From Armatimonadota bacterium (GTDB taxonomy: Bacteria; Sysuimicrobiota; Sysuimicrobiia; Sysuimicrobiales; Kaftiobacteriaceae), in assembly GCA_031081675.1 (NCBI GenBank), contig JAVHLZ010000001.1, positions 3,899 to 36,294 of the forward strand: DNA of 32,396 nt, given 5' to 3'. Made by a program: the position numbers and the translations under genes. Shown in pieces: positions 3,272 to 32,223 of this stretch. Each line of letters opens with the position of its first letter. Positions within the stretch are counted from its first letter, which is position 1. Below the pieces are notes generated by a model that was not told where the DNA came from, ran no database searches, and saw only the letters and a list, made by a program, of their open reading frames with translations.

Positions 3272-3660
3272 AATCTTCCATCCGCCTACCCGTTGACTGC
3301 GTTGAGGGTGTATTGCACCTGCGGGACCAGCCATCGGGGATCAGGACCTCGTTGAAGGTCCAAGGTTGAAGGTGTACTACGGCTGCGGGATCGGGGATCC
3401 GGCATCCGGGATCAGGGATTTGGATCCGGGATTCGGATCAAGCCCTCACCCTCGCCCTCTCCCGGAGGGAGAGGGAAGGATGTTGCCTGTCGCGCCCTCA
3501 CCCGAACCCTCTCCCACAGGGAAAGGGGAGGTGTTGTCTCTGCCGGGCCCTCACCCTGGCCCTCTCCCGGAGGGAGAGGGGAGAATTTTGAGGGGGAGAG
3601 GGTGAGGGTGAGGGGTCGTGGGGGTGGCGGGCGGGGAGGGTGTCGAATACAGGTGCTGCG
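3272..3660. repeat. Composite repeat: GTTGAAGG block, GGGATC iterations, palindrome array
   Basis: No gene is seen. The gap shows the three repeat modules in order. A GTTGAAGGTCCAAGGTTGAA block at about 3350-3380 has a decayed partner at 3297-3325. Short GGGATC iterations occupy about 3388-3440. C-rich palindrome copies lie at about 3441-3590, followed by a reverse-oriented GAGGGTGAGGGTGAGG piece to about 3616. Confidence 0.85.
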
Positions 3661-4656
3661 ATGAGGATCATGGTGAGGGCGTACGCATCATATCGGGAGG
3701 CCATCGGGGCGCCAGCGGTCAGCGTGGAGGTGCCGGAGGGCGCCACGCCTCAGCAGGTGTGGGCGCACCTGGTCGTCAGGTTTCCCGAACTCCAGAGGCT
3801 ACCTCCCCCGCACAGGTTTGCCGTCAACGAGGAGTACGTAGCGCCGGACAGGGTGCTGGGAGAGAGGGACGAGCTGGTCCTGCTGCCGCCGGTGAGTGGG
3901 GGTCAGGACATACCCCCTCACCCCCGCCCTCTCCCCCATGGGGAGAGGGGAGTGGAGGACTCGCTTGCGGGGACAGTCCCCGGATCCGTTCGGGGACAGT
4001 CCCCGAACCCCGCTGGGGACAGTCACCCGGACCCCCTTCACCCTCGCTCTCTCCCCTCAGGGGACAGGGAAGTGGATGACTCTCCTCCAACGGGGACTGT
4101 CCCCGGGACCAGCGGGGGACAGTCCCCGAACCCCGCTGGGGACAGTCACCCGGACCCCCATGGGGACAGTCCCCCCGAGTCCCCCGGGGACAGTCCCCCT
4201 TATCCCGAACCTCTTCCCCATGGGGAGAGGGAAGGGCACGAGGCGGGGGTGTGGGTGGGGCTGGTGGAGGCGCCGGTCGACGTGGGGGGGATGCTGGAGA
4301 GGGTGCGGCATCCGCAGGCGGGGGCGGTGGTGGTCTTTCTGGGCACGGTGCGGGACAACAGCCGGGGGAGGCGGGTGCAGTTTCTGGAGTACGAGGCGTA
4401 CCGGGAGCTGGCCCTCAAGGAGATGCGGCGTGTGGCGGAGGAAGCCTGCAGGCGGTGGCCGCTGCTGGGGGTGGCCATCGTCCACCGGCTGGGGCGGCTG
4501 GACGTGGGGGAGATCAGCGTGGCCGTGGCGGTCTCCTCGGGTCACCGCACGGAGGCGTTTGAAGCCGGGCGGTTTGCCATCGACACCCTCAAGCAGACGG
4601 TGCCGATCTGGAAGAAGGAGGTGTGGGAGACGGGGGCGGAGTGGGTGGGGGCCTGA
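3661..4656 (+). CDS. MoaD-MoaE fusion (molybdopterin synthase) with repeat-derived linker
   Basis: A 331-residue fusion of both molybdopterin synthase subunits. MoaD (residues 1-81) ends in PPVSGG, the Gly-Gly (80-81) that must become a free thiocarboxylate. MoaE (197-331) keeps GTVRDNSRG, VSSGHR and the catalytic-lysine region KQTVPIWKKE (311-320). The 115-residue linker is built from non-coding repeats. Three palindrome copies read in the same phase (PHPRPLPHGER at 86-96, relatives near 127-138 and 182-191). Eight GGGGACAGTCCCC-type elements lie between, with a 45-bp segment duplicated at 3992 and 4115. The ATG at 3661 is chosen for AGGTG five bases upstream; a GTG at 3640 is less likely. 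A GTG at 4249, with GAGG five bases before it, could give free MoaE. Natural MoaD-MoaE fusions (mycobacterial MoaX) are cleaved after the Gly-Gly. Confidence 0.9.
   Translation: MRIMVRAYASYREAIGAPAVSVEVPEGATPQQVWAHLVVRFPELQRLPPPHRFAVNEEYVAPDRVLGERDELVLLPPVSGGQDIPPHPRPLPHGERGVEDSLAGTVPGSVRGQSPNPAGDSHPDPLHPRSLPSGDREVDDSPPTGTVPGTSGGQSPNPAGDSHPDPHGDSPPESPGDSPPYPEPLPHGEREGHEAGVWVGLVEAPVDVGGMLERVRHPQAGAVVVFLGTVRDNSRGRRVQFLEYEAYRELALKEMRRVAEEACRRWPLLGVAIVHRLGRLDVGEISVAVAVSSGHRTEAFEAGRFAIDTLKQTVPIWKKEVWETGAEWVGA
3909..4236. repeat. Repeat cluster inside the moaD-moaE reading frame
   Basis: C-rich palindrome copies lie at about 3909-3951, 4036-4075 and 4200-4236. The 13-bp palindrome GGGGACAGTCCCC or a one-base variant occurs at 3969, 3992, 4015, 4092, 4115, 4138, 4162 and 4186. 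The stretches 3992-4036 and 4115-4159 are identical over 45 bp, so a recent local duplication enlarged the array. The only other copy of the 13-bp element that I noticed is at 11129-11141. The frame stays open throughout. Confidence 0.92.
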
Positions 4657-5572: not shown

Positions 5573-6856
5573 TGTACGGACTGGAGAGAAGGGTAACAGG
5601 TGTACCGGACACATGGGTAACAGGTTATCACACCCCCCGCAGGTCAATCTGGCCCACGGGGTGGTGGCCGAACAGAACCGTCAGCACGCCGTCAACCCCG
5701 GCGGGCTGCAGAGCTACCGGGTACCCGGTGAATGCTTGGCCGACCCGGAACTGCCGCCCCCGGTAAGAGATCAGGCCGCCCTGCTGAACCCGGCGGACCG
5801 GCAGGCCCACAGGGTAGTCGATCGGGGGCAATCGTTCAGGAAACGGCCGCAGGCTGGGGCGGTAGTGGGCGGCCGGGACGTCCAGCTGGAGCGCATCGTG
5901 GGGTCGCTGGAAGTTGTACAGGTCGCGCCAGCGGTTCAGGGCCGCCTGCAGGTGGGCCAGGTCCCGCCACTGGCGGCCGCGAGCAGTTCCTGCTCCAGGG
6001 TCCGGTGGAAGCGCTCCTCCTTGCCCAGCGTCTGGGGGTGGTAGGCGCGGCTGTGCCGCACGCGTATCCCCAGCCGCAGCAGCCACACCCCCAGCGGAGT
6101 GTAGACATGCTCGGCGTCGCTCCCCCAGGGGCTTCCGTTGTCCACCAGCACGCCATCAGGCAGGCCGTAACGCTGGAAGACCCCGGTGAGGGTGGCCTGA
6201 ACCAGCGGGGTCCGCTGGTGGGGCAGGGCGTGCAGGCACAGGTTGAAGCGCGAGCAGTCGTCCAAGATGGTCAGAGGGTGGGCTCGGCCGGCCAGGGTCA
6301 CGACCGGACGCTTGAAGTCCATTTGCCACAAGCTGTTGGGGACGGGGTGCGTGAAGCGCTGCCAGGTGCGCCGGCCTCCCAGGCTCCCGGTGGCGATCAG
6401 GCCCTGGCGGTGCAGGACGGCCGTGATGGTGCTCCCGGCGGGCAGAGGGCGGATACCCTGGAGCTCCAGGGCGCGGAGGATCTTTCGGGCACCCCAGGTC
6501 GGGTGGGCGGTCCGCAGGGTCACGATGGCCTCTGCGACTCCGGCAGACACCTGGGCGGGCAGGGCGTGGGGGCGACGCGAGCGGTCGGCCAGCCCGTCGA
6601 CACCCTCTTGCCGGTAGCGACCCAGCCACTTGTAGCCGGTTTTGCGGCTGATCTGAAACCGCCGGCACAGCGCGCTGACGCTCACGCCAGCCTGCCGGGC
6701 CATGGTCACGAACTCGTACCGTAGAGCCATGAGATCCACCGTCCTCCAGGGCATAGCTCCCTCCTCAGGTCAGGTGAGGGAATTATGCCAGTACTCTGGA
6801 GCCGACTGTTACCCATGTCTCCGGTACACTTGTCACCTATCTCCCCGGTCCGTACA
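5573..6856. mobile_element. IS481-family insertion sequence inserted in a repeat
   Basis: An element of about 1.28 kb with long imperfect terminal inverted repeats. The left (5573-5623) and right (6806-6856) ends match at about 44 of 51 positions by eye and give TGT...ACA termini. Within each end a GGGTAACAG-type motif recurs (5591 and 5615 on the left), probably transposase binding sites. CCCCTTGG occurs on both sides (5562-5569 and 6857-6864). It extends to 11 bp with one mismatch, so it is a likely target duplication. The repeat copy at 22530-22565 shows the same sequence uninterrupted. Confidence 0.85.
5628..6754 (-). pseudogene. IS481-type DDE transposase, frameshifted
   Basis: A transposase of about 375 codons if read through one -1 shift. 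The first frame (ATG 6754, with AGGAGGGAG before it) encodes a helix-turn-helix region (SVSALCRRFQISRKTGYKWL) and an rve core. The core has catalytic Asp in LWQMDFKRP, Asp in LVDNGSPWG and Glu in GKEERFHRTLEQELL. This frame ends shortly after residue 260. The C-terminal part (WRDLAHLQAALNRWRDLYNF and PVRRVQQGGLISYRGRQFRV) continues in the -1 frame to the TGA at 5628. The break lies near 5975-5985, in a GC-rich run without a classic slippery heptamer. This is more likely inactivation or an assembly indel than programmed frameshifting. Confidence 0.85.
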
Positions 6857-26334: not shown

Positions 26335-27558
26335 TCACGTCGTTTTCCCCCGACCTGCGCCATCTCCCTGCCTCTCGGAGGACCAGGTCGGGCCGGCCTC
26401 CACCGGATACTGTTCGTTCATCCACGCCACGATCCCGCCAGCCAGGTTGACGGCGCGGTCGTAGCCGGCGGCCCGCAGGGTCTCGGTCACCGTGGCGCTG
26501 CGCTGGCCGGTGGCGCAGAAGACGATGGTGGTGCGGTCCCGCGGGATCTCCTCCAGCCGCCGGGGGACCTCGGCCATCGGGATGAACAGCGCGCCGGGAA
26601 TGCGGGCGGTGACCCACTCCCACTCCTCCCGCACGTCCAGCAGGACGGCCTCGCCCCGCTCGACCAGGGCCCGGGCCTCGGCCGGGCCTACCTCGGGGAT
26701 GGTCCGGGCGGCCGCCGGCTGGGGCTGGGGGTGCGGCCGCGGGACGCCGCAGAACGCCTCGTAGTCGATCAGCTGGGTGATGGTGGGGCGGTCGCCGCAG
26801 ACCGGGCAGTCGGGGTTGCGGCTCCAGCGGACGGTGCGGATCTCCGCGGCCAGCGCGTCCACGATGAGCAGGCGGTTGACCAGCGTCTCGCCCCGCCCCA
26901 GGAGGATCTTGATGGTCTCCAGCGCCTGCAGGGTGCCCATGAATCCCGCCACGGCGCCGATGATGCCGCCCTCGGCGCAGCTGGGCACCGTGCCGGGCGG
27001 CGGAGGCGTGGGGAACAGGCACCGGTAGCAGCCGCGGCCGGGCACAAAGACGGTGGCGTGGCCCTCCCACCGCAGGATGCTGGCGTCCACCAGGGGCTTG
27101 CCCAGGAACACGCAGGCGTCGTTCACCAGGTAGCGGGTGGGGAAGTTGTCGGAGCCGTTCACCACCACCTCGTAGTCGGCGATGATGTCCAGGGCGTTCT
27201 CGCTGCTGAGGACGGTCTGGTGCGGAATCACGGTCACGTCGGGGTTGATGTCTTCCAGGGTCCGCCGCGCCGACTGGGTCTTGGGGCGCCCGATGTCGTG
27301 GGTGAAGTGGAGGATCTGGCGGTGCAGGTTGGACAGGTCCACCCGGTCGCCGTCCACGATCCCCAGGGTCCCCACCCCGGCCGCCGCCAGGTACAGGGCG
27401 GCGGGGCTGCCCAGGCCGCCGGCGCCGACGATCAGGACCTTGCTGTCCAGCAGGCGGCGCTGCCCGGCCAGGCCGACCTCCTCCAGGATGGTCTGCCGCG
27501 AGTACCGCTCCATCTGCTCGGCGGTGAGCAGCGGACCAGGTCGGGTGACCAGCGTCAT
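26335..27558 (-). CDS. MoeB/ThiF-type adenylyltransferase fused to rhodanese (MoeZ-like)
   Basis: A 407-residue E1-like enzyme that adenylates the C-terminal Gly of a sulfur carrier such as MoaD, ThiS or CysO, with a rhodanese domain that supplies sulfur. E1 part: ATP loop GAGGLGSP (45-52), DLSNLHRQILH, NGSDNFPTRY, conserved Cys C194 (VPSCAEGG) and zinc Cys C177, C180, C251 and C254. Rhodanese part, about 287-385: active-site Cys C348 (IVFCATGQRS). This is the expected activator of the MoaD half of the fusion at 3661-4656. The ATG at 27558 has GAGGAGG about eight bases upstream. The promoter is probably the extended -10 at 27605-27613. The last 20 residues are a disordered tail. Confidence 0.93.
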   Translation of the reverse strand: MTLVTRPGPLLTAEQMERYSRQTILEEVGLAGQRRLLDSKVLIVGAGGLGSPAALYLAAAGVGTLGIVDGDRVDLSNLHRQILHFTHDIGRPKTQSARRTLEDINPDVTVIPHQTVLSSENALDIIADYEVVVNGSDNFPTRYLVNDACVFLGKPLVDASILRWEGHATVFVPGRGCYRCLFPTPPPPGTVPSCAEGGIIGAVAGFMGTLQALETIKILLGRGETLVNRLLIVDALAAEIRTVRWSRNPDCPVCGDRPTITQLIDYEAFCGVPRPHPQPQPAAARTIPEVGPAEARALVERGEAVLLDVREEWEWVTARIPGALFIPMAEVPRRLEEIPRDRTTIVFCATGQRSATVTETLRAAGYDRAVNLAGGIVAWMNEQYPVEAGPTWSSERQGDGAGRGKTT

Positions 27559-31393: not shown

Positions 31394-31819
31394 TCACAGG
31401 TGGCCGGCTGGCTGCCTGACCCGAGCGATGTCGGCCAGGGTCATCTCGGCCAGCACCCGCTCGACGGCCCGGTTGATGGCCTGCCAGACCGGGCGCAGGC
31501 CGCATCCGGGCGCGTAGACGCAGTCCGGGTCGCTGGTTTCCACGCACCACCACGGCGCCGCCGCCCCCTCCAGGACGTCGAACGCCTCGCGGAGGCTGAT
31601 GGCCTCCGGTGGCCGGGCCAGGACGTGGCCGCCGGCCGGGCCGCGCTTGCTGGTCACCAGGCCGGCGCGGCGCAGCACGGCCATCAGCTGGTTCAGGTAG
31701 GGTTCGGGCAGCCCCTGGCGGGCGGCGATGTCGTGGGTCTGGACCGGACCTTCGCCGTAGTGGCTGGCCAGGTCGATCAGCGCCCGCAGGCCGTACTCGG
31801 CACGGGTGGAGACTCTCAT
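31394..31819 (-). CDS. Rrf2-family regulator with three Fe-S-type cysteines (IscR-like)
   Basis: A 141-residue Rrf2 transcription factor. Winged helix: MRVSTRAEYGLRALIDLASH, then LPEPYLNQLMAVLRRAGLV and the wing SKRGPAGGHVLARP. Three cysteines, C92, C100 and C106 (WWCVETSDPDCVYAPGCGL), have the C-x7-C-x5-C spacing of a cluster-binding loop. IscR uses similar cysteines to sense Fe-S status, NsrR nitric oxide. CymR-type members lack them. The ATG at 31819 overlaps the JAMM peptidase stop (ATGA), so the two are coupled. The gene could regulate Fe-S genes such as those at 22590-23246; no binding site was identified. Confidence 0.9.
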   Translation of the reverse strand: MRVSTRAEYGLRALIDLASHYGEGPVQTHDIAARQGLPEPYLNQLMAVLRRAGLVTSKRGPAGGHVLARPPEAISLREAFDVLEGAAAPWWCVETSDPDCVYAPGCGLRPVWQAINRAVERVLAEMTLADIARVRQPAGHL

Positions 31820-32223
31820 CGGATGATCACGCTCGCTTCCGCGATCTGCCCGTCGGCCAGCCGGAACGCCCGGATCACGGGGGCCGACCGGTCGGCCAGG
31901 GAGATGATCACGTACAGCGCCTCCGGGTAGTAGGCCCGGGCCACGTCAGTGGTGGACGGATACGCCGGGGTATGGGTGTGCGAGTGATAAATCCCCACCA
32001 GATCCAGCCCCGCCGCCTCCATGTCCTTGAAGGCCGCCAGCTGCTGGGCGGGATCCATCAGGTACGTGTAGGGGCTGCGGTCGACGTTGGTCCCCCGGTA
32101 GATCCGCTCGACCCGGCCGTCGCGCCCGGCCAGCAGGCCGCAACACTCGTTCGGGTACTCTTCCTCGGCGTGCCGGATCAGTTCCGCCGCCTGCTCCCGG
32201 GTCAGCTCCAGCACCGTCGTCAC
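31816..32223 (-). CDS. JAMM/MPN+ (M67) metallopeptidase
   Basis: A 135-residue JAB/JAMM domain protein. The zinc motif is complete: E26 (YPNECCGLLAG) and H80, H82, S90 and D93 (HSHTHTPAYPSTTD). Eukaryotic relatives remove ubiquitin. Bacterial ones cut after the Gly-Gly of ubiquitin-like sulfur carriers (ThiS, MoaD, CysO) or remove cysteine from CysO, as mycobacterial Mec+ does. The start is a GTG at 32223 with a possible -10 box only seven bases before it, so the transcript may be nearly leaderless. It is coupled to an Rrf2 regulator by ATGA overlap. It is a candidate processing enzyme for the MoaD-MoaE fusion in this window; that link is inference. Confidence 0.92.
   Translation of the reverse strand: MTTVLELTREQAAELIRHAEEEYPNECCGLLAGRDGRVERIYRGTNVDRSPYTYLMDPAQQLAAFKDMEAAGLDLVGIYHSHTHTPAYPSTTDVARAYYPEALYVIISLADRSAPVIRAFRLADGQIAEASVIIR

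Follow-up and report, generated by a model that had tools for sequence, protein, structure and literature searches.

A MoaD–MoaE fusion with an internal Gly-Gly and a repeat-built linker, and a candidate JAMM protease for its maturation

The fusion of MoaD to MoaE, and the cutting of that fusion, are already known in principle. In M. tuberculosis the fused protein MoaX is cleaved at the Gly82–Ser83 bond and requires this cut; the protease responsible was still unnamed in 2015 (PMC4326299). In D. radiodurans, according to PMC8832034 (citing Yang 2018), the JAMM protease DR0402 cuts the MoaD–MoaE fusion DR2607 and is needed for the use of cPMP, which accumulates in its mutant. The Haloferax enzyme HvJAMM1 releases SAMP1 and MoaE (PMC4443979), and the class 4c gene clusters of Iyer 2006 combine ThiS/MoaD, JAB, E1/rhodanese and cysteine synthase, with MoaD–MoaE and ThiS–ThiG fusions also reported (PMC1779556). 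In Thermus, loss of a JAMM by mutation leads to aberrant conjugates of TtuB and halves the amount of thiouridine. In the QbsE/QbsD system a JAMM removes the residues past the Gly-Gly of a sulfur carrier, residues that there make up a short tail and are not fused to a partner enzyme.

The stretch of DNA analysed here (the window: 32,396 nt, G000:C1:3899-36294) belongs to a 2.29-Mb MAG that is 97.8% complete and whose nearest named relatives are MAGs labelled Armatimonadetes and Bacterium HR32; it probably belongs to the candidate phylum Sysuimicrobiota. It carries a moaD–moaE fusion gene at 3661-4656 (plus strand), a single open reading frame of 331 residues plus stop, recognised by Pfam and by an alignment of 33 fusions. 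The frame begins at an ATG (3661) that corresponds to the start position in relatives, so that the first GTG, at 3640, appears the less likely start. Pfam matches the one frame to both MoaE (E=1e-40) and ThiS/MoaD (E=8.5e-13). The MoaD (ThiS-fold) domain occupies residues 1-81 (3661-3903, plus strand); it passes the Pfam ThiS cut-off, and scores 51.5 bits against the TIGR01682 MoaD equivalog, below that model's cut-off of 66.15, with profile positions 2-80 of 80 matched. The MoaE domain occupies residues from about 196 to 331 (4246-4653, plus strand; Pfam, alignment and AlphaFold2) and retains the active-site residues K311, K318, R231, H295 and R296, which are invariant in the 33 aligned fusions and are equivalent to K119, K126, R39, H103 and R104 of E. 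coli (assigned via the ungapped PDB alignment range). In the AlphaFold2 model both domains are confident (pLDDT mostly >90), and confidence is low from residue 84 to about 192.

The initial annotation of this DNA had claimed that the Gly-Gly of MoaD is buried within the fusion, and this is the case: PPVSGG (residues 76-81) ends the MoaD domain, and positions 3898-3909, in frame with the ATG, read GGG GGT CAG GAC, placing Gln82 and Asp83 directly after Gly80-Gly81 (3898-3903, plus strand) in the same reading frame as MoaE. Both glycines are invariant in the 33 aligned fusions, and MoaD–MoaE fusions are the rule throughout the order; judged by this conservation, the internal Gly-Gly is not a matter of chance. 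MoaD and MoaE in one frame, a Gly-Gly at the end of MoaD and an intact MoaE active site are the features of a MoaX-type (fused) MPT synthase. Nor does translation offer a way out. There is no stop before MoaE in frame 0 or +1, and one in frame +2 only after 57 codons; given that no frame stops early, MoaD would be freed neither by termination, as the annotation had said of stops, nor by ribosomal slippage. Slippage at the G run was considered and rejected on the same ground, neither of the other frames having an early stop.

That activation should need cleavage, a further claim of the annotation, gains support by analogy from MoaX (PMC4326299), where the cut falls after the equivalent Gly just as the annotation had stated, and from DR0402/DR2607 as described in PMC8832034. 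The likeness to MoaX extends to the fusion itself and to the required cut after the second Gly; M. tuberculosis, however, has further moaD and moaE genes (PMC4326299), unlike the present genome, in which the fusion carries the only MoaE. As with DR2607 and DR0402, MoaD and MoaE form one chain with an internal Gly-Gly and a JAMM is encoded elsewhere in the genome; the window protein differs from DR2607 in having a linker some 115 residues longer than that of its relatives, in the palindromic repeats of this linker, and in that its cutting is a prediction. The candidate JAMM described below would, like HvJAMM1, release a Ub-like carrier and MoaE (PMC4443979). The natural link between SAMP1 and MoaE in Haloferax is an isopeptide bond, whereas that in the window is an encoded linear fusion. 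The linear SAMP1–MoaE fusion of Haloferax is reportedly a construct made for an experiment.

The candidate processing enzyme is a JAMM/MPN+ protease encoded at 31816-32223 (minus strand; Prok-JAB E=8e-28), in which E26, H80, H82, S90 and D93 make the metal-binding motif E...H-x-H-x7-S-x2-D complete. It is the only strong JAMM in the genome, a second match (E=8.5e-5) lying under the family cut-off. Its nearest PDB entry is 2kks (E=4e-29), followed by 2kcq and then by the archaeal JAMM1 structures 5ld9/5lda, and it scores 98.9 bits against the Haloferax-type desampylase model NF041370, short of the equivalog cut-off of 130. The window also encodes a MoeB-type E1 (26335-27558, minus strand); nothing else in the genome matches the ThiF family. 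The E1 joins a ThiF domain to a C-terminal rhodanese domain, the arrangement of the MoeZ/MoeB-R type, and among the listed NCBIfam models the MoeB subfamily NF004281 alone passes its cut-off. The genes around the JAMM form a cysteine cluster (CysM, CBS, SerK-like, CysO-type carrier, MetB-type and rhodanese), of which CysM, CBS, the SerK/SbnI-like protein, a rhodanese and the SAMP1/CysO-like carrier are found past the window edge. JAMM, E1-rhodanese, CysO-type carrier and cysteine synthases lie near each other as in class 4c of Iyer 2006; unlike class 4c, the parts are spread here over some 12-17 kb, and are accompanied by a TtuB–TtuA fusion in this genome and by CysO–cysteine synthase fusions in relatives. 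An SbnI/SerK-like serine kinase adjoins CysM and CBS (L154:5587-6441), and such a neighbourhood suggests an O-phosphoserine route to cysteine. Elsewhere in the window, at 5936-6754 (minus strand), an open reading frame resembles, by eye, an integrase/transposase, with a helix-turn-helix followed by integrase-core-like motifs.

Family searches of the genome found four ThiS-fold carriers: the fused MoaD, a TtuB fused to TtuA, and two SAMP1/CysO-like proteins that continue for 13 and 20 residues past AMAGG. None of the four ends in Gly-Gly, and these searches revealed no second MoaD or free carrier. A separate MoaD with a free Gly-Gly, which the initial annotation had named as the finding that would count against its reading, was therefore not encountered in this 97.8% complete genome. 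The TtuB–TtuA protein (G000:C7:16514-17608) is an in-frame fusion with an internal Gly-Gly, TtuA being the enzyme of tRNA 2-thiolation; 20 relatives encode TtuB as an open reading frame of its own, with residues after the Gly-Gly in 18. Across the order 81 further carriers were compared (24 MoaD, 20 TtuB and 37 others): Gly-Gly forms the end of nine, and the remaining 72 are fused to MoaE, cysteine synthase/CBS or ThiG, or bear tails of 1 to 65 residues. Among these relatives, six have fusions of a CysO-like carrier to cysteine synthase/CBS and one has a ThiS–ThiG fusion, with the Gly-Gly inside. Tail length varies even within one carrier family (the L001 type: 0, 0, 0, 0, 1, 2, 8, 11, 12 and 13 residues past Gly-Gly), which is to be expected if the sequence is discarded. 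Cleavage appears to serve each of the four sulfur carriers of the organism. Two details are new within the literature examined: the joining of TtuB to TtuA, and a lineage with a JAMM in which the Gly-Gly of carriers is generally buried.

Of 80 named loci chosen by similarity to the window fusion, 41 have a Gly-Gly fusion, and every one of those 41 genomes has a JAMM, compared with 18 of 39 for the loci without such a fusion (E of 1e-9 or better); within Bacilli the figures are 21/21 and 0/17. When stand-alone MoaD proteins are included, 72 MoaE-bearing loci from many phyla comprise 52 with a buried Gly-Gly and a JAMM (window included), one with a buried Gly-Gly and no JAMM, three with a free end and a JAMM, and 16 with a free end and no JAMM. 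A JAMM thus accompanies a fusion or tail in 52/53 cases and a free end in 3/19 (Fisher P=4e-12, for loci that share ancestry). The trait switches 6-7 times on a tree of MoaE, with 2-3 independent pairs on well-supported branches; all pairs that differ in JAMM agree with the association and none opposes it, and with so few pairs a sign test cannot reach significance. In the Paenibacillus terrae/brasilensis group, seven genomes without a JAMM encode a separate MoaD ending in PPVSGG together with a fusion in which SAPGM or a similar sequence replaces the Gly-Gly: where the protease is absent, the buried Gly-Gly is absent too. At these seven loci the two stand in tandem, a MoaD with a free Gly-Gly and a Gly-Gly-less MoaD-like domain fused to MoaE. 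Two cases run counter to the association, namely a 97% complete genome (G017) with a fusion and no JAMM match, and a tailed MoaD (L083) whose genome lacks a strong JAMM.

The initial annotation did not extend to the make-up of the linker, the short linkers of relatives, the candidate protease and the E1 that the window also encodes, or the age of the fusion. The linker (residues 82-196, about 115 residues; 3904-4248, plus strand) is predicted to be disordered by AlphaFold2 and is absent from relatives: 139 residues separate the Gly-Gly from the MoaE core GAVVVF in the window, versus 23-47 in 16 relatives. The extra stretch consists of two families of palindromic repeats, R1 and R2, all on the plus strand. 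An R1 copy, CCCCTCACCC..CCTCTCCC..GGGAGAGG, at 3914-3957 is followed by R2 repeats (GGGGACAGTCCCC) at 3969, 3992 and 4015, with a spacing of 23 (3969-4027), by a second, degenerate R1 copy at 4026-4079, by R2 repeats at 4092, 4115, 4138, 4162 and 4186 (4092-4198), and by a third R1 copy at 4188-4241, directly before the MoaE domain. The R2-R2-R2 block recurs 123 nt downstream at 90% identity, and as 123 nt equals 41 codons a duplication of such a size would preserve the frame. The R1 pattern CCTCACCC..CCTCTCCC..GGGAGAGG has 28 copies in the window and 51 in the genome, and none in the shuffled window. R1 palindromes are thereby crowded at window positions 251-29693, the 32-kb window holding 28 of the 51 genome copies. 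The paired R2 pattern (GGGGACAGTCCCC at 23-nt spacing) is present solely in this genome among the 44 searched, where arrays with a 23-nt spacing followed by one of about 100 nt occur at several sites, including 3969-4198 of the window. By eye, the other arrays appear intergenic or at gene ends and none joins two domains, and the idea that R2 arrays are a general protein linker was set aside. The linker frame stays open in 27% of dinucleotide shuffles; openness is for this reason weak evidence, and was dropped as a sign of coding selection. An Rfam search of the window gave no match. A linker built from such repeats is new as far as the literature examined goes.

The fusion with an internal Gly-Gly is present in every one of the 24 same-order relatives whose sequence was examined. 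Taken with the short linkers of relatives, this distribution indicates that the fusion is an ancestral trait inherited within the order and that the long linker is newer.

We propose that the gene yields molybdopterin synthase as a single inactive MoaD–linker–MoaE precursor. The JAMM encoded 27 kb away in the window would cut after Gly81, before Gln82, releasing MoaD with a Gly-Gly end and MoaE with a disordered N-terminal tail; the MoeB-rhodanese of the window would adenylate and thiocarboxylate the freed MoaD, which would then assemble with MoaE into a normal MPT synthase. Interspersed palindromic repeats would have entered the linker of the inherited fusion, and part of them would have been duplicated over a length divisible by three, lengthening the linker by about 115 residues, and the long linker would be tolerated because it becomes a disposable tail once cut. 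By analogy with the described systems, the reading with the best support is that the precursor is cleaved after Gly-Gly, and the window JAMM is most likely the enzyme that makes the cut; to the explanation as a whole we assign a probability of about 0.8.

Three other explanations deserve consideration. A different protease may cut after the Gly-Gly, the JAMM serving only a CysO-type cysteine pathway in the manner of Mec+. The position of the JAMM among cysteine genes, the lack of a name for the MoaX protease as of 2015 and the fusion-bearing genome G017 speak for this. Yet a JAMM does cut the D. radiodurans fusion and its loss leads to cPMP accumulation (PMC8832034), JAMM presence tracks fusions and tails across loci, and the genome offers just one strong JAMM; we consider such a division of labour unlikely. 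It is slightly less probable still that the length of the linker reflects an error of assembly or a recent insertion that disables the gene, so that the true linker is short or the gene is dying. The genome is a MAG, repeats may be wrongly assembled, the R2 block recurs within the linker at high identity, and the paired R2 pattern is peculiar to this genome. Against this stand the two intact domains, the 72% identity of aligned residues with the nearest fusion, the reading frame preserved through the repeats, and the fact that no other MoaE exists in the genome, which has one MoaA.

Finally, the repeats may have split the gene, with MoaE made from an internal start, with MoaD arising through read-through or from a shortened transcript, and with no proteolysis involved. 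The initial annotation had pointed to a GTG at 4249, five bases downstream of a GAGG, and both are indeed present; use of this GTG as a separate MoaE start finds no support, since a comparable purine motif accompanies 9 of the 22 GTGs within 4200-4650, as is common in so G-rich a stretch, and the internal start was rejected. As relatives without repeats are still fused and no early stop frees MoaD in any frame, a split gene is very improbable. The reading we prefer remains cleavage of the precursor after Gly81 by the window JAMM.

A broader proposal is more tentative, and we put it somewhat short of an even chance: one JAMM would mature all four Gly-Gly carriers (MoaD, TtuB and the two SAMP1/CysO-like proteins), partner proteins and palindromic repeats would enter right after the Gly-Gly, sequence past that point being free to vary when a single JAMM matures every carrier, and a buried Gly-Gly would be a marker of JAMM-dependent maturation across bacteria. 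To the known fusion and its cutting, this locus adds a genome in which, judged by sequence, every sulfur carrier needs proteolysis before it can work, an association of JAMM possession with a buried Gly-Gly that spans many phyla, and a case of interspersed palindromic repeats building a 115-residue protein linker. If the proposal is true, the molybdenum cofactor, the thiolation of tRNA and the synthesis of cysteine would all be gated by one protease, in a way similar to the maturation of ubiquitin precursors by deubiquitinases.
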